From a virus, in IMG/VR virus record IMGVR_UViG_3300049489_000746, positions 1 to 26,250 of that record: 26,250 nucleotides of DNA; one strand, 5' to 3'. Below the pieces are notes generated by a model. It was not told where the DNA came from and did not search any database. It saw nothing but the letters and a program-made list of their open reading frames with translations. This document shows positions 2,977 to 21,357 of the stretch, piece after piece. Position 1 is the stretch's first letter, and every line of letters begins with the position of its first letter. Position numbers and translations under genes: made by a program.

Positions 2977-3151
2977 TCAATGGTAAGGGGCTTTTCTTGA
3001 AATCGCAACATTTGGCGCAAGTAAACCGAAACCGCTCCCGCTTCTCGGTCGTCCAATACTGGCGAAACTCCCGGGCCGAAACCCATGCGATCCCGAACGA
3101 CTCGCCGCATTTCGAGCAGTTTTGAATTACCGTTTTCTTTTTCACGCTCAT
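2936..3151 (-). CDS. zinc-ribbon protein
   Basis: A 71-residue protein. The ATG at 3151 overlaps the polymerase stop as ATGA, which decides the start over longer upstream options. Residues 8-45 contain two cysteine pairs, NCSKCGESFG and TCAKCC, spaced about 30 residues apart, which is a zinc-ribbon or zinc-knuckle arrangement. The C-terminus is basic and lysine-rich (NADGKENGKGKVV). Such proteins commonly bind nucleic acid or stabilise replication partners; coupling to the polymerase suggests a replication-associated role, but no specific family is recognised. Confidence 0.75.
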   Translation of the reverse strand: MSVKKKTVIQNCSKCGESFGIAWVSAREFRQYWTTEKRERFRFTCAKCCDFKKSPLPLNADGKENGKGKVV

Positions 3152-5151
3152 TTCCTGTACCTCTTTCCCGTCCAGCCGGACGCTTTCACCGGGCATCCTT
3201 GAGCCCATTCGGGCAAATCGACCATGGCGTTTTCAAATTCCCCTAGTGGTCGCCCGGGCCGCTGCTCGGCCAAGAGTTCGTCATGTACCGAAAGCACAAT
3301 AGCGTACCCACGTCCTGACACGTTCAGCATTGCATGGGCCATGATATCGCGCGAAATGGCTTGGTCGATATTCTCGACAAGTTTCCCGCCGTAAGTCGCG
3401 CTCTCTTCCCATTTGCGTGTCACGCTATTAAGCCCGTAATGGTAGAGTTTCGGGGCGGGCTCGCCCCAAGGCGTTTCCTCGAATCTAACGCTCGGGTTTT
3501 TGAACGCGAGCCGCCGTCCGCTTGGGAGCTTGCACCATAAAAAATCCCGGTCGGCGAACCATTCGCAGCGTCCGGCGACGAAACTTTCAGACCGGCCCGT
3601 TCGGTTTCTGGCGATCACGGCGCGGCAAGCGGCGCGCTCGACATTCTTCCAAAGGGCGACGACCGGCTCATGCTCGGAGCGGTACACTTTTACGGCCGCT
3701 TTCGCGAGTTCCTCGGTCACGGCTTGCCCTTGGTCACGGCAAGCGCGGAAGAACTTCACCGGCCCCATACCGTATCCGCATCCGAGAATTGTGGTTTTCC
3801 CAAGCCAGCGTTGGGCGTCGGTCACTTTCTCGACCGGGACGCCGAAGATCCGCGCCGCCATTTCGCGGTATAGATCGGCCCCGCTTTCCCAAAGTCTAAT
3901 CCCGGCGGTATGGTCCGCGAGCCAAAACAAAACGCGCGCTTCGATTGCGTTATAATCCGCGCAAACGAATTCGCTCCCGAGCGTCGGGACGATCATCGAG
4001 CGCAAGCAGCTCGAAAAGGTTTCCATCGGGCGGCCGTAGAAAAACCGCGCCGACTCAAGCCCGCCTTGGTCGACCAACGCGACGGCGGTTTCGGTATCCT
4101 TGATCGTCCCGCGCGGGAAGTTTTGGGGCTGGACGCCCGCCCCGCTCCAGCGCCCGGTCGATGCGGCGTGGTAAACCAAAATATCGCGGATCCGCCCATT
4201 TGATTCCGAGCGATCCAAAAATGCGCGATACTTGGCCGTACTCGTTTTCGATGCATCTTGCCTGATTTCAAGCGCGCGCCTTGTTTTCGGCGTGAGCCCC
4301 CCGGCCGCGAGCGCGTCCAAAACCGTTTTCGCCCGAAGGTCCGGGAGATCGAGCCCCCGGCCCTTGAGCCATCCCAGAAGTTCGTCGCGTTGTCCGGCTG
4401 TGAAAAGCCCGGTCAAATCCGAGATCGCTTCGTTGAGCGAGCGGGTTTCTTCTCCGATCATGCCCAAGATTTTCCCGACAAGCGGACGGTCAACGCAAAA
4501 CCCGCGCCAGTTTATTTCCTGATCAAGAAGCCAAACGGCCCGTTCGTTCTCGGTCAATTCCGGCGTCGAAAGGAGAAGCCCGGTTTCGGCGTCGATATCG
4601 GTCGCGCAGTAATGAATAAGCCGGTGCAAGTCAGGAGAAAGCTCATGCCATTTGTCTTGGTTATTCTTGGTCGCCTTACGCGGTTTGCAATGTTTCAGAA
4701 TGAGCTTTCGCCCGACCATATCTTTTTGAACGGGAAGCCCCATCGCTTGACAAGCCCCTTCCAAGTTTCGCGGGATGGCAAGCGCCGCCGCTTGCGCGGC
4801 GGTACACTGCCAGCGCGCGGGCGGGAGATCCGGGAGCGGGCGCTTCAGGTATTTCGGAAGCACAAAGCGCGTAATGACTTGCTCGAAAAAAGCGTTATGA
4901 GCGACCATGCGAACGGACGGGTCGGCCATAACCGCCGCAAGCTCCGCGAGTTTCCGATTTTCCGCGACTCCGTCCAGCCAGATGAAGGGCGACCAAGCCG
5001 AGATCGGCGCGCGCTCAATACTCTCCCGCGTCCCGATCCGCCAAGCGGCGCAAATAATTTCGGTCGTCGGATGAACGGCGTACTCGTAAGCCCCGACCGC
5101 TTTTAGGTCGGCTTCGGAGCGCGTTTCGAAATCAAGGACGCAAAACCTCAT
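3148..5151 (-). CDS. polA-like: family A DNA polymerase with 3'-5' exonuclease domain
   Basis: A 667-residue PolA-type phage replicative polymerase. The N-terminal proofreading domain has Exo I (LDFETRS, D7 and E9), Exo II (VAHNAFFEQ, N86) and Exo III (YCATDIDAE, Y181 and D185). The polymerase domain has STGRWSG (about 331-337), motif A (CADYNAIEARVLFWLA, D399 and E404), motif B (RWLGKTTILGCGYGMG, K451 and Y460) and motif C (LSVHDELLA, H623-D624-E625). There is no 5' nuclease domain, as is usual for phage enzymes of this size. All catalytic residues seem intact. The gene is ATGA-coupled at both ends (upstream zinc-finger gene, downstream zinc-ribbon gene). Confidence 0.97.
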   Translation of the reverse strand: MRFCVLDFETRSEADLKAVGAYEYAVHPTTEIICAAWRIGTRESIERAPISAWSPFIWLDGVAENRKLAELAAVMADPSVRMVAHNAFFEQVITRFVLPKYLKRPLPDLPPARWQCTAAQAAALAIPRNLEGACQAMGLPVQKDMVGRKLILKHCKPRKATKNNQDKWHELSPDLHRLIHYCATDIDAETGLLLSTPELTENERAVWLLDQEINWRGFCVDRPLVGKILGMIGEETRSLNEAISDLTGLFTAGQRDELLGWLKGRGLDLPDLRAKTVLDALAAGGLTPKTRRALEIRQDASKTSTAKYRAFLDRSESNGRIRDILVYHAASTGRWSGAGVQPQNFPRGTIKDTETAVALVDQGGLESARFFYGRPMETFSSCLRSMIVPTLGSEFVCADYNAIEARVLFWLADHTAGIRLWESGADLYREMAARIFGVPVEKVTDAQRWLGKTTILGCGYGMGPVKFFRACRDQGQAVTEELAKAAVKVYRSEHEPVVALWKNVERAACRAVIARNRTGRSESFVAGRCEWFADRDFLWCKLPSGRRLAFKNPSVRFEETPWGEPAPKLYHYGLNSVTRKWEESATYGGKLVENIDQAISRDIMAHAMLNVSGRGYAIVLSVHDELLAEQRPGRPLGEFENAMVDLPEWAQGCPVKASGWTGKRYRK

Positions 5152-5357: not shown

Positions 5358-5394
5358 TTCCGGCCCCCGTGTTTCTGGGGCACGGGGGCCGGAA
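5358..5394 (-). terminator. strong hairpin between ssDNA-binding and zinc-finger/polymerase genes
   Basis: A perfect 14-bp inverted repeat (arms 5358-5371 and 5381-5394, TTCCGGCCCCCGTG and its complement) with a 9-base loop. It is the only sizeable gap inside this part of the leftward operon. No U-tract follows on the leftward strand, so it may be a partial terminator, an RNase processing or stability element that lowers polymerase expression relative to the ssDNA-binding protein, rather than a full intrinsic terminator. Confidence 0.5.
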
Positions 5395-9946: not shown

Positions 9947-10186
9947 ATGACAGAGAAGAAACGCCCGGGCGAGAAGCCCGGGGCGTTTGTGCGTTGGGTT
10001 AGTTCCATCGGCGGGGCTCAGGTTTTGGCGCGCTCGCTCGGGATGACCGAACCCGGAGTCACTCGCTGGCTTAGAAAAGAATGCCAGCCTAATACCCGGA
10101 CGGCCGTCCGCATGATCGTCATGGGCCGGGGGGCGTTTGATTATAATGATCTCGTTCGCGACACCTATCGCGGGAAATTGTGGTGA
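9947..10186 (+). CDS. small helix-turn-helix regulator
   Basis: A 79-residue protein. Residues about 21-45 form a helix-turn-helix (GGAQVLARSLGMTEPGVTRW) of the Cro/CI-like type: a first helix, a glycine turn and a recognition helix with exposed polar residues, then a basic LRKE. No ligand or dimerisation domain is present. It sits in the divergent control region, as early phage regulators and DNA-binding initiators do. AATCAAGGGGGC precedes the ATG. It is 4 bases ahead of the primase-helicase GTG, so it may also be a replication accessory that marks the origin. Confidence 0.75.
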   Translation: MTEKKRPGEKPGAFVRWVSSIGGAQVLARSLGMTEPGVTRWLRKECQPNTRTAVRMIVMGRGAFDYNDLVRDTYRGKLW

Positions 10187-10190
10187 GCCC

Positions 10191-12533
10191 GTGAGCGGAA
10201 TTGACAAGGCTAAAGTATTCTCGGAAGCGAAGCGTTTACATGACGCGGGCTGGGCGATTCACTGGCTCATGCCGCGCGAGAAGCGCCCGGCGAAAGCGGG
10301 CTGGACAACCGGCCCGCGCGAGTCGTGGCCGGAGTTAAAAAACTCATACCCGTTTGGCGGGAACGTGGGCGTAAGGCTCGGGAGCGCGTCGCGGTTGAAC
10401 GGCGGGTTTCTCTTGGCTTGCATCGACTGCGACGTGAAAGGAACCGAGGCATTTTTTGCAGATGAAATGCGGGCGCGGTTGTCTGAGATTTTCCCGGGGC
10501 ATGAGTCGGCCCCGAGCGTCGAATCAGGGCGGGGCAATGGCTCGCGTCATATATATGTCGCGACCCGGGGGGCCGAGCGGGGCCGGGTTCTCGCGCAGTC
10601 GAGCGAGGAAACGCGCGTCAAAATGCCATCGGTCAAGCCATCGCGCAGGGAAATGGAAACCATGAGCGCGGACGAAATAAAGGCGGGCTATAGGCTCAGG
10701 CCCGCTTGGGAGATTTCGCTTATGACCGAAGGGCGGCAAATGGTTCTGCCGCCGTCGATCCATCCCGATACGGGGGCCGCGTATCGTTGGGTCGTTCCGT
10801 TTACGGGCATGGTTCCCGAGCTTGCGCTGAATAAGGGGGCCGAAACCGGCCGGGCTATCGGGGGGCTTGCGGCCGGGGCGGCTGGGCGATTGGGGGGCTC
10901 GGGCGATTTCTTGTCATTCAAATGGTCGCCCGTTCCAGTTTCTCTCAAAGACGACCCGCGCTCAAACGAGAAACTCCGGGCGTTGTGCGAGGACGCGGAA
11001 GGATTTGACGATCATTCAAAGGCGCTTTTCTCGGCGTGTTTGAAACTGAATGCGTCGGGCTTTGGGCGGGATGAGATTCTGACAGTCTTGACTGACCCGA
11101 GTACGGCGCTCGGGGCGTGCCCGTACCGGCATTGCAAGCGCCCCGTATTAGAGCAGCACAGGCGGCGTGCGGCGTTTTGGTTGAGCCGGTACACGCTGGC
11201 CCGGGCGCTTGAACTTGGGGGCTTAGAAGCCGAATACGGCGGCGAGGTCGTGCGCGGCGAGCCGCTCGATGACGACCAAGCGGAAGCACAGAAAAGCGAT
11301 CTAGTGGGGGCCGCCGACTGGCGCATGGGGCTTGAGCGCGGGGGCCAAAATGGGACCGGGAAACCAAAAGGGACGCTGGCAAATGTCATCCTAGTTTTAG
11401 AGAATGAGGTCGGGCCGGGCGTGTTCAAAAAGAACCTGTTCACCGGGTATGAGATCCATGGGCGGGCGACGCCGTGGGGGGCTCGGGCTGGCGACGAAAT
11501 CGACGACGGGCATTTGATCGCGGTCAAGGTATGGTTCGCGAACCATTTCGGATTCGAGCCGCCGACCGGGCTCGTAAGCGAAGCGGTGAGCGATATCGCG
11601 CGGCGGAATTCGTTTCATCCCGTTCGGGAGTATTTGGACAGGCTCGAATGGGACGGCGTCCCGCGCATCGATTCGTGGCTGGCTCGGTATTGCGGGGCTC
11701 AGGCTGAGGAACCATACTTGTCGGCCATCTCGCGCAAGTCATTGGTCGCCATGATCGCGCGTGTGATGAATCCGGGGGCCAAGTTCGATTGCGTCCTGAT
11801 TCTGGAAGGCTCGCAAGGAATCGGCAAGTCAACGCTCATTCGGTTTTTGGCCGGTGACGAATGGTTTACCGACGCCCATATCGACATCAAAAACAAGGAC
11901 GCGGTTTTGTCGATTGGCGGGGTATGGGCCGTGGAACTCGGTGAGCTTTCGAGCTTGCGGAAGGCGGACGTCGATCAGCTCAAAGAGTTCATGAGCCGGA
12001 CAGTCGATCGAATCCGCGTGCCATACGGCGAGCGGCCGATCAAAATCCCGCGCCAGTGTGTGTTTTTCGGGACCACGAACTCGGACGAATACTTGCGCGA
12101 CATGACCGGAAACCGCCGCTTCTGGCCCGTGTCGGTCGGCGATTGCAAGTTCGATGAGATCAAGCGCGACCGCGATCAGCTATTCGCGGAAGCGCGTTGG
12201 TTTTATGACTTGGGCGAGCCGCTTTATTTGGCGGACAAAGAGGCGCTCAAGGGGGCGAAAGCCGAGCAGGAAAAGCGGGAAACGTATGACGCGCTTCAAG
12301 AGCGGTTGGCGGATTTCTTTGACCATGCGGCGAGCGTTGAAAATTTCCCGTTCGACCTTTCGTGTTTTCACATGGCCGACCTTTTTGGCGACCACGGGCC
12401 GATGGCCGGAACCCGAATGGACAAGGGCGAGCAGATGCGAGTCGGGGGGCTTTTAAGGAAAATGGGCTTTCGAAAAGCCCTGAAACGGACCAAAAGAGGC
12501 GTTGCAAATTGGTGGACAAGGACCGAAAAATGA
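10191..12533 (+). CDS. primase-polymerase / VirE-type helicase fusion
   Basis: A 780-residue protein starting at GTG 10191, 4 bases after the HTH gene, with GGTGAG as binding site. The N-terminal 200 residues are an archaeo-eukaryotic primase-like (prim-pol) domain: NVGVRLG, LACIDCD (catalytic acids D79, D81) and GSRHIYV (His 120). The C-terminal part is a VirE/P4-type ATPase: Walker A LEGSQGIGKST (about 538-548), Walker B-like VWAVELGELSS, then TTNSDEYLRDMTGNRRFWPV, the sensor/arginine region typical of virulence-associated E proteins. The fusion should prime and unwind DNA at the phage origin, feeding the PolA-type polymerase. Confidence 0.92.
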   Translation: MSGIDKAKVFSEAKRLHDAGWAIHWLMPREKRPAKAGWTTGPRESWPELKNSYPFGGNVGVRLGSASRLNGGFLLACIDCDVKGTEAFFADEMRARLSEIFPGHESAPSVESGRGNGSRHIYVATRGAERGRVLAQSSEETRVKMPSVKPSRREMETMSADEIKAGYRLRPAWEISLMTEGRQMVLPPSIHPDTGAAYRWVVPFTGMVPELALNKGAETGRAIGGLAAGAAGRLGGSGDFLSFKWSPVPVSLKDDPRSNEKLRALCEDAEGFDDHSKALFSACLKLNASGFGRDEILTVLTDPSTALGACPYRHCKRPVLEQHRRRAAFWLSRYTLARALELGGLEAEYGGEVVRGEPLDDDQAEAQKSDLVGAADWRMGLERGGQNGTGKPKGTLANVILVLENEVGPGVFKKNLFTGYEIHGRATPWGARAGDEIDDGHLIAVKVWFANHFGFEPPTGLVSEAVSDIARRNSFHPVREYLDRLEWDGVPRIDSWLARYCGAQAEEPYLSAISRKSLVAMIARVMNPGAKFDCVLILEGSQGIGKSTLIRFLAGDEWFTDAHIDIKNKDAVLSIGGVWAVELGELSSLRKADVDQLKEFMSRTVDRIRVPYGERPIKIPRQCVFFGTTNSDEYLRDMTGNRRFWPVSVGDCKFDEIKRDRDQLFAEARWFYDLGEPLYLADKEALKGAKAEQEKRETYDALQERLADFFDHAASVENFPFDLSCFHMADLFGDHGPMAGTRMDKGEQMRVGGLLRKMGFRKALKRTKRGVANWWTRTEK

Positions 12534-13375: not shown

Positions 13376-13692
13376 GTCGTCAAAAAGGATTAAGTTTCGA
13401 AAGATGGGTCGCGATCAAGCTCAGGCGAATTTTCCCGGAAGCGCGTCGCCAGCTCGAATACCATGCGCGCGATGCGCGCGGGATTGATTTGCAGGAAACG
13501 GGGCGCTTTCGCTTTCAATGCAAACGCGGGCGGAAGTATTCGCCCGTGACGGCGATTGCGGAGATTCAGTGCAATCGGCTTTTTGAGATCCCGGTATTGG
13601 TCACGCAAGGCGACCACGCCGAGCCGTTGGCCGTCCTGCCATTCGACGAGTTTCTGGCCCTGCTCGAAAGCGCGGAGGTTTGGAGTTCATGA
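13363..13692 (+). CDS. PD-(D/E)XK nuclease, Holliday-junction-resolvase-like
   Basis: A 109-residue protein, start at ATG 13363 with GGGGGC 5-6 bases upstream; it overlaps the HNH gene by 13 bases. The N-terminal helix has KGLSFERWVAIKLRRIF (E13), followed by RGIDLQE (D42) and RFQCKRG (Q52-x-K54), the E...D...QxK pattern of small archaeal-type resolvases and related phage nucleases. It would cut branched DNA before packaging or during recombination. It seems complete. The gene runs straight into a tiny membrane protein by an ATGA overlap. Confidence 0.75.
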   Translation: MGKLSRQKGLSFERWVAIKLRRIFPEARRQLEYHARDARGIDLQETGRFRFQCKRGRKYSPVTAIAEIQCNRLFEIPVLVTQGDHAEPLAVLPFDEFLALLESAEVWSS

Positions 13693-13778
13693 GCCACGAC
13701 GATCAAGTTCACTTGGCAATTATTCTTTGCAGCGCGGGCGGCGTGATGATCGTAATCGCGGCGTTCATTTGGTTATGA
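13689..13778 (+). CDS. 29-residue membrane peptide
   Basis: A 29-codon frame coupled by ATGA to the resolvase-like gene. The product is MSHDDQVHLAI followed by a hydrophobic run (IILCSAGGVMIVIAAFIWL), i.e. almost entirely one membrane helix. The overlap and the helix are the evidence for it. Function unknown. Confidence 0.45.
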   Translation: MSHDDQVHLAIILCSAGGVMIVIAAFIWL

Positions 13779-13786
13779 CTTGCCGC

Positions 13787-13839
13787 AAAAAATTCCGAGT
13801 TTTTTAAGCCGTTGACAAGCCGCGCCCGGCGGGTAGAAT
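13787..13839 (+). promoter_or_regulatory. strong promoter with UP-element-like A/T tracts
   Basis: TTGACA (13812-13817), a 16-base spacer and TAGAAT (13834-13839) make a close sigma-70 match. AAAAAA (13787-13792) and TTTTTTAA (13800-13807) lie just upstream, at about -60 to -40 if transcription begins at the ATG of the next gene, where UP elements sit. The spacer holds a short GC dyad (GCCG/CGGC). Only 7 bases separate the -10 from the ATG at 13847, so the transcript would carry almost no leader. Confidence 0.75.
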
Positions 13840-13846
13840 CCCGGGC

Positions 13847-14467
13847 ATGGCGCTATGGTCCGATCTCAAATCGCTCGCCGAGCTTGCGGGAAAAATTCTC
13901 GCGCGGCTCGATGAAATTTTGACCGAGCTTCGCGTTGCCCGCGCCGAAGTCGCGCGACTCGGTATTCGAATCGGCGACAAACTTGAGCGGCTCGAATCCC
14001 ACGTTGACGCCCAATTCGAAGAAGCCGCCGCCAAAAACAATTTTCGCTTTTTCGTCGTCGAGTCACGGCTTGACGAAATCATTCGCCAGCTTCAACCGCC
14101 CGAAGCCGCGCGAATCGTTTTTCAAACCATGGGCGAGGAGATCGACAAAATGCAGATGAAAGTTACCCAGAAGCTCCCGCTTGAGATCAAGCTCGTGGAC
14201 AAGTTTGGAAACGCCGCCGTCGCCGACGGCGCTCCCGCTTGGTCCGTTTCCGACCCAGCGCTTGGCGACTTGGTCGTCGCCGAAGGCGGCATGAGCGCCG
14301 AGTTCACGCCGAAAGGCGCGACGGGTTCTTGCTTGGTTCAGGTTTCCGCCGACGCCGATCTCGGCGAAGGCATGAAGGCGATCATGGGTTCCCTGCCCGT
14401 TGACCTTCTCCCGGGCGAAGCCGTCGAGGTTCAGGTTTCGGCTGGCGCTCCCGTTGACATGGCTTGA
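13847..14467 (+). CDS. coiled-coil plus Ig-like domain protein, apparently leaderless
   Basis: A 206-residue protein. Residues 1-95 are a long charged helix with heptad character (LAELAGKILARLDEILTELR onward) that should form a coiled coil; residues 104-206 look like a bacterial Ig-like beta-sandwich (LEIKLVDKFGNAAV, PAWSVSDPALGDLVV, AEFTPKGATGSCLVQVSADA). Such Ig-like folds are common on virion surfaces. Its own strong promoter ends 7 bases before the ATG and a terminator follows, so it forms an independent unit. No ribosome binding site is possible in so short a leader. An internal ATG near residue 102 could give the Ig-like part alone. Role unknown; a virion decoration or host-interaction protein is plausible. 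Confidence 0.8.
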   Translation: MALWSDLKSLAELAGKILARLDEILTELRVARAEVARLGIRIGDKLERLESHVDAQFEEAAAKNNFRFFVVESRLDEIIRQLQPPEAARIVFQTMGEEIDKMQMKVTQKLPLEIKLVDKFGNAAVADGAPAWSVSDPALGDLVVAEGGMSAEFTPKGATGSCLVQVSADADLGEGMKAIMGSLPVDLLPGEAVEVQVSAGAPVDMA

Positions 14468-14490
14468 GCAGTATTGGCCCACAACGCCAC

Positions 14491-14540
14491 GCGCCCCCTA
14501 TGCGTCCGTCCTTGAGCGCATGGGGGGCGTTTCTGTTTTG
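14491..14540 (+). terminator. intrinsic terminator of the Ig-like gene
   Basis: A 13-bp GC-rich stem (arms 14492-14504 and 14517-14529, one G-U pair) with a 12-base loop, followed by TTTCTGTTTT. It lies 24 bases after the stop of the Ig-like gene and is the clearest rho-independent terminator in the window. It would isolate that gene from the structural operon. Confidence 0.85.
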
Positions 14541-15648: not shown

Positions 15649-16075
15649 GCCCGAGTTTGAATTCCCCGCCCCACCGCTTGCGCCCGGGGAGCGCGTCAAG
15701 CGCGGGCCGATCTCGTATTACCGTGAGCAGTATTGCGGCTTGCTTGTCGAGCATTGCAGAAACGGCGGGTTCATCGAAGGATTCGCCGATAAAATCGACG
15801 TTCACGTCGACACGCTTTATGAATGGGGAAAGAAGCATTCCGAGTTCAAAACCGCGTTGGCTTGCGCGAAACAAGGGAACCGCGTGAAACTCCTCCAAAT
15901 CGCCATGGCCGGAATGATGGGGCGAATCTCGAATTACAACGCGTCAACTTGCATCTTTCTTCTGAAGGCTGTTCACGGTTTCCGCGAGGATGGCCCGGAC
16001 GCGCTTCTCGACAAGGAACTCGATTTCGATTTCGGCGACGAAAGCGTAATCGGCGAGCCTGAAAATGTCGCGTAA
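15602..16075 (+). CDS. terS: terminase small subunit
   Basis: A 157-residue protein, start taken at ATG 15602, with GTGAGGT upstream; GTG 15587 would add 5 residues. The N-terminus is basic. The central part (residues about 45-95: CRNGGFIEGFADKIDVHVDT then YEWGKKHSEFKTALACAKQ) has the helix-turn-helix plus 'LYEWxxxxxEFKxAL' pattern of phage terminase small subunits, which recognise viral DNA for packaging. The C-terminal part (MAGMMGRISNYNASTCIFLL) fits the oligomerisation region. It lies upstream of the large subunit, with a methyltransferase gene between them. Confidence 0.82.
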   Translation: MIRPATKRRNKRRKCKPEFEFPAPPLAPGERVKRGPISYYREQYCGLLVEHCRNGGFIEGFADKIDVHVDTLYEWGKKHSEFKTALACAKQGNRVKLLQIAMAGMMGRISNYNASTCIFLLKAVHGFREDGPDALLDKELDFDFGDESVIGEPENVA

Positions 16076-17369
16076 TCTGAAAGCCGGGGCGTTAAGCCCC
16101 AATAAAGAAAACCCGCGTTCTATATCGGGCGGTAAAGAAAAAATGCTTGCGCGTTCGCTCGCCGAGTTCGGCGATCTCGGCGCGGTCGTTTTCAATCGCC
16201 GGTCGAAGCAATTGGTTGGCGGGCATCAACGCATCAAGGTTTTTCCGAAGGATTCCGAGATCGAGATCGTAACCACGTTTAAGAAACCAACGAAAACCGG
16301 GACGGTCGCCGAGGGTTTCTTGCGCGCATTCGGCGAGCGGTTCCCATATCGCGAAGTCGATTGGGATGCATCGCGCGAGAAAGCGGCGAACATCGCCGCT
16401 AACAAAGGCGCGGGCGAATGGGATTTTCCGGCGCTCTCAAAATGGCTCTCTGAATTGAGCGCGGATGATTTCGATTTGGACTTGACAATGTTTGACGAAA
16501 GCGAGCGGCAAGCGTTGCTTTCGGTTGAAACCGTCGAAGGGAAAACCGACGAGGACGCGATACCCGCCGCGCCAGCCAAAGCGAAAACGGTTCGCGGCGA
16601 CGTGTACCAGCTCGGGCGCCACAGGCTTTTGTGCGGGGATTCGACCATGATCGACGACGTTGAAAAGCTCATGGCGGGCGAGAAGGCTGATATTTGCTTT
16701 ACAAGCCCCCCATACAACCTTGGGGACAACGCGAAGCTGAGAGGGTACAACGGAAGTGGAAAAGATTCGGCTTACGAAGAAAGAACCGATCACAAAACAG
16801 AGCAAGAATATTTGGATTTTTGCGTGAGTTTCACGAATAATGCGTTAATTGTTAGCGATACAGTATTCGTAAATATACAACTACTCGCTGGAAATAAATT
16901 CGTTTTACCGGAATACTGGAGAACTTTTGCGAACAGAACAATCGACGTGTTTATTTGGGATAAAGAACACGCGCCGCCGCAGATGGCTGCGCGTGTTTTA
17001 AATAGCGTATGGGAATTTGTTTTTGTTTTTTGTAACGCTGAACGGCCGTCTAGGGCGATGAAACACGGTCCTAGTTTTCGCGGTACGGTGGACAATATTT
17101 TCAGAATGAATCCGGCGGGGAAAAAAGATAAGCACGCGCATAATCATGGCGCTGTGTTCCCGGTACAATTCGCCGAGCATTTTGTCAGCAAGTTTTCGGA
17201 TAAGCTGGTTTTCGACCCGTTTGGCGGATCGGGCTCGACGCTCATCGCGGCCGAGAAAACCGGCCGCGCCGCTCGGCTTATTGAAATTAGCCCAAACTAT
17301 TGCGACGTGATCGTCAAACGCTGGGAAGATTTCACCGGAAAAAAAGCCAAGCTCATTTCGTCGGCATGA
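16065..17369 (+). CDS. ParB-like domain fused to DNA methyltransferase
   Basis: A 434-residue fusion. Residues 1-110 are a ParB/Srx-like nuclease domain (SPNKENPR, LVGGHQR at 50-56). Residues 175-430 are an amino-methyltransferase with catalytic TSPPYN (213-218) and the AdoMet-binding DPFGGSGST (384-392), in beta-class order. An SPPY tetrad is more common in N4-cytosine enzymes, but N6-adenine cannot be excluded. The central part, coded by about 16741-17170, is strikingly AT-rich (120 of 300 bases G/C at 16741-17040, against 42 of 60 in sampled flanks), matching the target recognition region. It probably protects phage DNA from host restriction. It overlaps terS by 11 bases. Confidence 0.9.
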   Translation: MSRNLKAGALSPNKENPRSISGGKEKMLARSLAEFGDLGAVVFNRRSKQLVGGHQRIKVFPKDSEIEIVTTFKKPTKTGTVAEGFLRAFGERFPYREVDWDASREKAANIAANKGAGEWDFPALSKWLSELSADDFDLDLTMFDESERQALLSVETVEGKTDEDAIPAAPAKAKTVRGDVYQLGRHRLLCGDSTMIDDVEKLMAGEKADICFTSPPYNLGDNAKLRGYNGSGKDSAYEERTDHKTEQEYLDFCVSFTNNALIVSDTVFVNIQLLAGNKFVLPEYWRTFANRTIDVFIWDKEHAPPQMAARVLNSVWEFVFVFCNAERPSRAMKHGPSFRGTVDNIFRMNPAGKKDKHAHNHGAVFPVQFAEHFVSKFSDKLVFDPFGGSGSTLIAAEKTGRAARLIEISPNYCDVIVKRWEDFTGKKAKLISSA

Positions 17370-18684: not shown

Positions 18685-20316
18685 ATGATTAAAGTTTTGT
18701 CAGAGGAATTCTTGCTCGATCCCGCGTTGCGGAAAAAGCTCATTCAATCTTTCGATTCGGCGGCGAATACGCGGCGCAAGGCGGAAGCGTTCAAGGGGTA
18801 TGAGTGTCTGAAAGACTCGACCGATCATTACGTTTACGCGCTTCTCTCAGCTCAATTCGAGTCCGAAACCGTTTACGAGATGCAATATGCGATCTCAAAC
18901 ATTTCGATTCTGCGAAAGGTCGTGGAAAAGCTCGCCAAGGTTTACGCGGGCGGCGTCAAGCGGACGGTCCCTAATAACGACGCTGCGACGGCTCAAGTCG
19001 AGGAACTCGCCAAGCTCATGCGGTTCAATGAGCAAATGGCGAAAGCGAATCGGTATTTCAGGGCGTTCAAGAACACGCTTGTTTTCCCGAAGCCCGTCAA
19101 GGACGAATTCGGCAAGTACGCGCTCAAGCTCGAAATCCTTCCGCCGTTCAAGTACGACGTAATCGAGGATTCGGACAATCCGGAACTCCCGCTTGCGGTC
19201 GTGCTTTCGGATTATGTCCCGACCCGCCAGTCGATTTTCTCGATCAGTAATCCAGCCGTTCGCGGCCAGAATCAGACGACCCGCATGGTTCGGGAATCGA
19301 GCGCGTCCATGCCGGAACAAGCGGCGGGCGAGGACGCCCGTCGTTTCATTTGGTGGACAAAGAATTTACATTTCACGACCAACGCCAAGGGCGAAATCAT
19401 TTCCGGCCCGGGAATCGATAACCCGATCGGCGAGCTTCCCTTCGTGAATATCGCGGGCGATCAAGACGGCGAATTTTGGGCCAAGGGCGGCGGCGATCTC
19501 ATCGACGCGGGCGTGAAAATCAATACAATGATCACGAACGTCCGCCATGTCGCCGTTTCGCAGGGTTATGGTCAAATGTATATGACCGGGAAGAATCTCC
19601 CGAAAACGATCAAAGTCGGCCCGACCCATTGTATTCAAATCGAGCAGGAAAGCACCGACGACCCGAAGCCCGAAGTCGGGTTCCTCAATTCGAACCCGCC
19701 TATCGACGAACTCTCCCGTTTGATCGAGATGGACGTCGCGCTCATGCTCTCGACCAATAATCTTTCAACGCATGGTTTCTCGATCTCGCTTTCGGGCTCG
19801 AAAGATTTCGCGAGCGGCGTCGCAATGATGATTGATAAGGCCGAAAGCGTTGAGGACATTACCGAGCAGTCGCGGATATTCGTCGAGCGCGAGCCGCGCG
19901 TTTGGGGCAAGGTCGAAAAATGGTGGAAAGTATTCGACGAACGCGGGCTTCTCTCGGACGTGTTCAAGGCGGCCCCGGTTCCGAAAGAGGCCGCAAGCGT
20001 GCTTCTTAATTTCCCTGACCCTAAGCCCGTCATGAGCGAGTCGGAAGAACTCGACATTATCGCCAAGCGGCGTGAGCTTGGGCTTAATACTGAGGTCGAG
20101 CTGCTCATGCGCGACGACCCGAGCTTGAGCGAGGAACAGGCGCAAGAAAAATTGACGGCTATTGAGGCTGAGAAACTGGGTCGTATGGAATCGGCGGTCG
20201 CCACGGTGACAAATGGAAATCAAAGTCAAGGGAACGACGGGCAGCAAAACCAAAACAGCGACGACGTTGGAGCTCCCGATTCAGGACCTCCCGCCCCGGG
20301 TTCAAGCGCGAGTTAA
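18685..20316 (+). CDS. portal protein
   Basis: A 543-residue protein directly after terL, where the portal normally sits, with GAGG before the ATG. Length and the mostly helical, charged N-terminus (residues 1-140), a beta-rich centre (ALKLEILPPFKYDVIEDSD, PELPLAVVLSDYVPT) and a Gln/Asn/Ser-rich disordered tail fit SPP1/HK97-type portals. It would form the dodecameric ring at the capsid vertex. I recognise it mainly by position and shape. The last 104 bases are also coding for the next gene in another frame. Confidence 0.85.
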   Translation: MIKVLSEEFLLDPALRKKLIQSFDSAANTRRKAEAFKGYECLKDSTDHYVYALLSAQFESETVYEMQYAISNISILRKVVEKLAKVYAGGVKRTVPNNDAATAQVEELAKLMRFNEQMAKANRYFRAFKNTLVFPKPVKDEFGKYALKLEILPPFKYDVIEDSDNPELPLAVVLSDYVPTRQSIFSISNPAVRGQNQTTRMVRESSASMPEQAAGEDARRFIWWTKNLHFTTNAKGEIISGPGIDNPIGELPFVNIAGDQDGEFWAKGGGDLIDAGVKINTMITNVRHVAVSQGYGQMYMTGKNLPKTIKVGPTHCIQIEQESTDDPKPEVGFLNSNPPIDELSRLIEMDVALMLSTNNLSTHGFSISLSGSKDFASGVAMMIDKAESVEDITEQSRIFVEREPRVWGKVEKWWKVFDERGLLSDVFKAAPVPKEAASVLLNFPDPKPVMSESEELDIIAKRRELGLNTEVELLMRDDPSLSEEQAQEKLTAIEAEKLGRMESAVATVTNGNQSQGNDGQQNQNSDDVGAPDSGPPAPGSSAS

Positions 20317-20866
20317 GCGCGACGTGGGCGAGTTCGTCGTCGAAAGCGTTTTGAAGTCGCTTGCGAATGCGGAGAGCCCAGTCGCGGGCGCGAGCTGGCC
20401 GGATCTCTCGCCAAAGTACAAAGACAAGAAAGAGGGCGAGGGCTTGAACGGCGAGCCCAATATGGAACTTTCTGGCGATATGCTCGACTCGCTCGACTTC
20501 CGCGAAACGCGGGACGGAATCGAGGTCGGCATATTCGGTCGGGAAGCGTGGAAAGCGGACGGCCATTTGAAATTCAGCGGGGCCGAAAACAACACGCCAA
20601 GGCGGCAATTTCTGCCAGACGAAACAAACGGCGAATTCGTTCCGGGCATTCAACGTGAGATGGAAAAAATTATTGCGGACGCAATCGGCGACGAAATGGA
20701 ATTCAAACCGTCCGACTTCGAGGACGTGTCCTCCCGGGCCGGGCTCTACGACGCGCTTGACGAATATTTCCCGGATTTCTCGCGCGCCGATATCCGGGAA
20801 ATTATAACTAACACGCCGTCGCTTGTCCGGTTTCTGGACGACGCCGGGCTTCTGGAGCTTCTCTAA
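20213..20866 (+). CDS. HK97 gp10-like / virion morphogenesis protein, copy 1
   Basis: A 217-residue protein. The ATG at 20213 lies inside the portal gene and has GGTGA just upstream; a GTG at 20324 just after the portal stop is the alternative. Residues about 85-150 hold MELSGDMLDSLDF, GIEVGIFG and PRRQFLPDE, the pattern of phage virion-morphogenesis (gpG/gp10-like) proteins that join head and tail. The C-terminal 55 residues are an added acidic helical region. It shares this core with the next gene. Confidence 0.7.
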   Translation: MEIKVKGTTGSKTKTATTLELPIQDLPPRVQARVKRDVGEFVVESVLKSLANAESPVAGASWPDLSPKYKDKKEGEGLNGEPNMELSGDMLDSLDFRETRDGIEVGIFGREAWKADGHLKFSGAENNTPRRQFLPDETNGEFVPGIQREMEKIIADAIGDEMEFKPSDFEDVSSRAGLYDALDEYFPDFSRADIREIITNTPSLVRFLDDAGLLELL

Positions 20867-21357
20867 TGGCGAAGACCAAGGTCACGACGCGGTTTCAAAT
20901 TTTGGAATTTCTTGACAAGTTCGTGGACGGGGCGACCGCGAGCGCCATCGGCCATACGGTCGTCGATCAAGCCAAGGATATGATCGCAAGCGGCCAAAGC
21001 CCCGAGCGCGGGTGGGGGCGCTTTGACAAATACTCGGAAAGCTACAAATCGGCGATCAAGGGAAACTCGTATCCCGGGAAAAAGGTCCGCCCTGTTAATC
21101 TAAATCTTACCGGCGAAATGCTTTCTGGTTACTCGTTCCGCCGCGTGAGCGATCATGTAATCGAGGTCGGCATGACCAAGGGAAGCGCCGAGCGAAAGAA
21201 CATTGCGGAGTATCATCAAGAAGGGACAAGCCGAATGCCAGCCCGGCCGCTTGTCCCGCACGAAGGGGCGGAATGGGCGGTTTCGATCATGCGCGCAATC
21301 CGGGACGTTTACGGAAAACGCTTGCGTCAACTAATTGAACGTGCAAACAAGAAATAA
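20866..21357 (+). CDS. HK97 gp10-like / virion morphogenesis protein, copy 2
   Basis: A 163-residue protein beginning in the stop of its neighbour (TAATG). It has NLNLTGEMLSGYSF, HVIEVGMTKGS and MPARPLVPHE in the same order and spacing as the preceding protein, so both probably share the gp10-like fold used in head-tail joining. The start PERGWGRFDKYSESYKSAIK is also typical of such proteins. It is shorter at the C-terminus than copy 1. A role in tail or neck assembly is likely. Confidence 0.75.
   Translation: MAKTKVTTRFQILEFLDKFVDGATASAIGHTVVDQAKDMIASGQSPERGWGRFDKYSESYKSAIKGNSYPGKKVRPVNLNLTGEMLSGYSFRRVSDHVIEVGMTKGSAERKNIAEYHQEGTSRMPARPLVPHEGAEWAVSIMRAIRDVYGKRLRQLIERANKK

Follow-up and report, generated by a model that had tools for sequence, protein, structure and literature searches.

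A phage Ig-like gene with a predicted leaderless long form and a conserved internal start for its Ig-like domain

The window analysed here, the whole of a linear virus record of 26,250 bases, carries on its plus strand a self-contained unit that probably yields an Ig-like phage protein in two nested forms, a leaderless long form and a short form of the Ig-like domain alone that is initiated at a Shine-Dalgarno (SD) sequence; we put the chance that this reading is correct at roughly two in three. Transcription from a TTGACA-N16-TAGAAT promoter would begin at the ATG at 13847 or within one or two nucleotides of it, so that a leaderless 5' AUG would serve as the start of the long form (206 aa, a helical coil followed by an Ig-like domain). 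Further along this mRNA, GAGGAG-N9-ATG at 14150 would recruit ribosomes in the ordinary way to produce the 105-aa Ig domain by itself, and a hairpin at 14491-14530 would end transcription. An earlier note on this DNA had described a strongly promoted, leaderless and insulated gene, and its reading is supported in part; its main omission was a conserved SD-dependent start inside the gene, at 14150, and it had also missed the family to which the gene belongs.

The promoter stands where that note had placed it, ending seven bases before the first ATG. TTGACA (13812-13817), a 16-nt spacer and TAGAAT (13834-13839) are followed by seven nucleotides of GC-rich discriminator, CCCGGGC, and then by the ATG at 13847. 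This sigma-70-type site is the best in the window, and nowhere else on the two strands does a match reach 11/12, as compared to 0.13 expected per simulated sequence under a consensus that may not be the host's, and the exact pattern with a spacer of 15-19 nt was absent from all 100 shuffled sequences, which bears out the claim of a strong promoter-like site belonging to the gene itself. The GC-rich stretch at the -10 element could slow open-complex formation. With regard to the UP element that had also been proposed, the A6 (13787-13792) and T6 (13800-13805) tracts do lie in the right interval on the plus strand, but they match the UP-element consensus only partially.

The ATG at 13847 is the first ATG, GTG or TTG in its open frame, which a stop precedes, and no SD-like stretch was found upstream of it, in agreement with the absence of a ribosome binding site noted before. 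The -10 element lies directly 5' of this start codon, and the A of the ATG, at position 8 after the -10, is the best-placed purine following a C. With no SD and a purine so placed, one would naturally predict a leaderless start, and the gene very probably has no leader before its first ATG; we infer that the exact 5' end of the transcript is at or next to 13847. The long form (13847-14467) would include an extension, 13847-14149, whose GC content at the three codon positions (0.70, 0.36 and 0.60) is coding-like.

At the other end of the gene, the intrinsic terminator that had been reported after the stop is present at 14491-14540 (plus strand), where a hairpin with a 15-bp stem (14491-14530) is followed by the U-rich tail TTCTGTTTT and the fold has a z of -3.3. 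Both a promoter and a terminator of its own, one of the marks of a moron, are found in the sequence. Insulation from both neighbouring operons had been claimed, and for the downstream side it appears well supported; the upstream half of the claim was not supported, as only an A/U-rich hairpin, and no convincing terminator, separates the promoter from the upstream stop (13778).

The family was found by scanning IMG/VR with a pattern built on its conserved stretch ADADLGEG, which gave at least 119 stretches, at least 95-100 of them encoding the Ig family; a second, disjoint pattern gave at least 65 further members. The nearest relatives among the matches listed (L025, L098, L053, L060 and L121) have VQVxADADLGEG in common. 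None of 40 family members matched Pfam, and one of 40 matched phrog_215, a structural protein with an Ig domain (E 2.9e-4), which the window protein does not match. A tblastn search of four members against 50,697 phage isolate records produced no convincing match. This is a large Ig-like family, present in uncultivated phages and undetected in some 50,000 sequenced phage genomes. We note that members are found as well in bacterial assemblies bearing the labels Dependentiae, Saccharibacteria, Pirellulales and Bradyrhizobium (L123, L122, L124 and L126); of 147 genomes from the genus to which the Bradyrhizobium record belongs, 2 had the family, a rarity of the kind expected of prophage cargo.

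A terminator-like hairpin within 140 nt 3' of the gene was seen in 25 of the 101 family genes listed as compared to 17 of 500 control ORFs, and in the second set in 9 of the 50 listed as compared to 6 of 267 controls, and on these counts a downstream terminator seems typical of the family. A sigma-70 promoter was rejected as a family trait (4 of the 95 genes listed, 1.7 expected), and leaderless expression may therefore be peculiar to this phage. The leaderless arrangement was not seen in the relatives, and an SD of at least 4 nt stands at the likely long-form start in 52 of the 72 listed, a biased figure since the starts were partly picked by SD. The scarcity of the promoter in relatives, together with the missing terminator upstream, would suit an alternative in which most transcription of the gene is read-through from the RusA-like operon, the promoter-like match having arisen by chance or contributing little. 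We consider this unlikely, as the 11/12 match is unique and is placed at the start codon, and a read-through mRNA would offer the long form no SD.

The only SD in the window gene is GAGGAG (14135-14140, plus strand), 9 nt 5' of the internal ATG, from which the predicted 105-aa short form (14150-14467) shares frame and stop with the long form. An ATG is present at the expected position, 63-78 codons 5' of ADADLGEG, in 100 of the 105 loci first examined among the matches listed, and upstream of it the frame is open for at least 30 codons in 75 of the 93 non-redundant genes listed (27 and 23 for the other two frames). Among these 75 extended genes, 48 have an SD of at least 5 nt at the internal ATG, as compared to 19.2 expected from synonymous recoding with local codon usage, in which the maximum over 1000 trials was 31. 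The excess survives thinning of the matches listed to below 50% identity (21 of 31, 8.3 expected) and recurs in the independent second set (26 of the 36 listed, 10.7 expected, z = 5.4), and there was no SD excess at internal ATGs in other genes of the same loci (20 versus 31.6 of 600). With regard to the extensions, pN was lower than pS in all 11 close pairs differing at more than two sites, pairs that overlap in members, a pattern by which the N-terminal extensions of the relatives are under purifying selection and translated. From a conserved in-frame internal start, a ribosome binding site selected beyond the protein sequence, and an extension that both pN<pS and codon-position GC mark as translated, we conclude that the nested two-product design is, as far as sequence comparison can tell, a family trait. 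A literature search on nested starts in phage Ig proteins found nothing relevant.

There are two other possibilities for this phage. Only the 105-aa form might be made, from an mRNA whose 5' region spans 303 nt and whose upstream frame is incidental; the sole SD of the gene is indeed the one serving 14150, and some relatives (L081 and L089) consist of the short form alone. For this to be so, however, one would have to dismiss an extension that is stop-free, coding-like in codon-position GC and under purifying selection in relatives, that shares with the nearest relatives the segment L..I...L.P..A..I.F.. before the internal Met, and that has a promoter sitting exactly at its ATG, and we find it improbable. 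Alternatively, only the long form might be made, as one continuous frame with a dedicated promoter might suggest, the internal SD and ATG being idle. The selection seen across the family for an SD at precisely this ATG, over and above any on the amino-acid sequence, and the retention of GAGGAG in the window at a workable spacing make that a poor prospect as well. Our preferred reading is the nested one, in which both forms would be made in this phage.

The window protein matched no Pfam, PHROGs or NCBIfam model at a meaningful E-value. The coiled-coil/Ig-like product first read from the translation is what structure prediction returned: an AlphaFold2 model of the long form (22 aligned sequences, mean pLDDT 86) has helices at residues 2-38 and 43-82, followed by a beta strand and an Ig-like sandwich, and the 105-aa part is also predicted to fold by itself. 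In a Foldseek search of the PDB, the best hits of this model were Ig-like domains of Rib, S-layer SbsC, BIG2 and the phi29 capsid protein (E 5e-5 to 1e-3). The folds are alike at 13-18% identity, but in those structures the domain is part of a larger surface or capsid protein, whereas in the window it is a stand-alone gene.

The modelled layout is also that of the T5 decoration protein pb10, another small phage protein, which in the excerpted account combines an alpha-helical domain at the N-terminus with an Ig-like one at the C-terminus and binds capsid hexamers (PMC5292684). PDB sequence searches gave no sequence relationship between the two, and the same excerpt of PMC5292684 describes no two-form expression for pb10. 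The Ig adhesins of gut phages were rejected as a different kind, being, in the portion of PMC13370021 available, mostly of the BACON type and mostly with several Ig-like domains per phage. As for the expression strategy, Shigella virF is one gene for two in-frame proteins, of which one is made from an mRNA that lacks a leader (PMC5101355). The window gene is predicted to resemble it in both respects, but in virF it is the short form that is leaderless, from an internal promoter, whereas here leaderless initiation would belong to the long form and SD-led initiation to the short one. Within phages, lambda S105/S107 and M13 gII/gX have a second in-frame start inside the gene; their proteins are unrelated to the window protein, whose short form is a whole Ig domain.

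PHROGs profiles place on the minus strand of the window a polA-type polymerase (3148-5151), a gp2.5-like ssDNA-binding protein, an exonuclease and a helicase, and on the plus strand a primase-helicase (10137-12533), HNH, the RusA-like protein, the terminase small subunit, a ParB/methyltransferase, the terminase large subunit (TerL) and the major head protein. The Ig gene is flanked by the RusA-like operon and a 193-aa ORF, after which the packaging genes come, and the capsid gene is some 7.6 kb away from it. Single IMG/VR queries with the Ig protein, TerL and the primase had no match and hence disclosed no close relative of the phage, and the 543-aa ORF after TerL had no match among isolates. 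The search for homologues and their neighbourhoods that the earlier note had recommended yielded the family but no function, the neighbours of relatives being a mixture of terminase, primase/polymerase, clamp loader, baseplate, methyltransferase and endolysin/lysis genes. A fixed neighbourhood as a clue to function was rejected, and since the neighbouring modules vary among relatives, context does not reveal function. Such mixed neighbourhoods are as expected of an accessory gene, and the moron-like status proposed at the outset is consistent with relatives found beside terminase, primase/polymerase, baseplate and lysis genes as well as with the family-wide terminator excess.

Might this be a classical moron, expressed in the lysogen and altering the host, for instance by superinfection exclusion at the envelope? 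The gene has its own promoter and terminator, relatives occupy diverse genomic positions, and 9 of the 71 relatives listed have a membrane-helix N-terminus. Set against these points, PHROGs scans of most window ORFs found no integrase or repressor in what is a fragmentary record, the phage has its own polymerase, helicase and primase, and the window N-terminus has no membrane helix, and we regard the proposal as doubtful. On the same figures, a membrane anchor was rejected as the general role of the N-terminus.

The most likely function, in our estimation, would be that of an accessory Ig protein with an anchored or multimerised long form and a free short form. Across the family the Ig part is constant and the N-terminus varies (coil, membrane helix or beta segment), and this variable part would anchor or multimerise the long form on the virion or host envelope, with the free Ig form co-assembling with it or limiting it. 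It is further conceivable, if rather doubtful, that the two forms are initiated by different routes, the anchored one from a leaderless 5' AUG and the free one from an SD, with the condition of the translation machinery in the course of infection setting their ratio. A family missed by both Pfam and tblastn appears to yield two proteins per gene, and an annotation that settles on a single start would overlook one of the products in most of its members. The window member would be a clean natural example of leaderless and SD-led initiation side by side on a single short transcript.

Several other features of the record deserve mention. Just upstream of the Ig gene, a 29-aa ORF with a membrane helix (MSHDDQVHLAIILCSAGGVMIVIAAFIWL, 13689-13778, plus strand) starts within the stop of the RusA-like gene (an ATGA overlap) with GGAGG upstream, and is probably the last gene of that operon. 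On the minus strand, a 17-bp perfect inverted repeat at 5358-5394, between the ssDNA-binding protein gene and polA, has symmetry sufficient for what could be a terminator or attenuator. Between the two terminase genes, a single plus-strand ORF (16065-17369) matches ParB-like profiles in its N-terminal part and N6/N4 DNA methyltransferase profiles in its C-terminal part. Finally, two adjacent plus-strand ORFs at 20213-21357 each match phrog_26 (tail completion or neck protein) and are possibly a duplication or a split gene.
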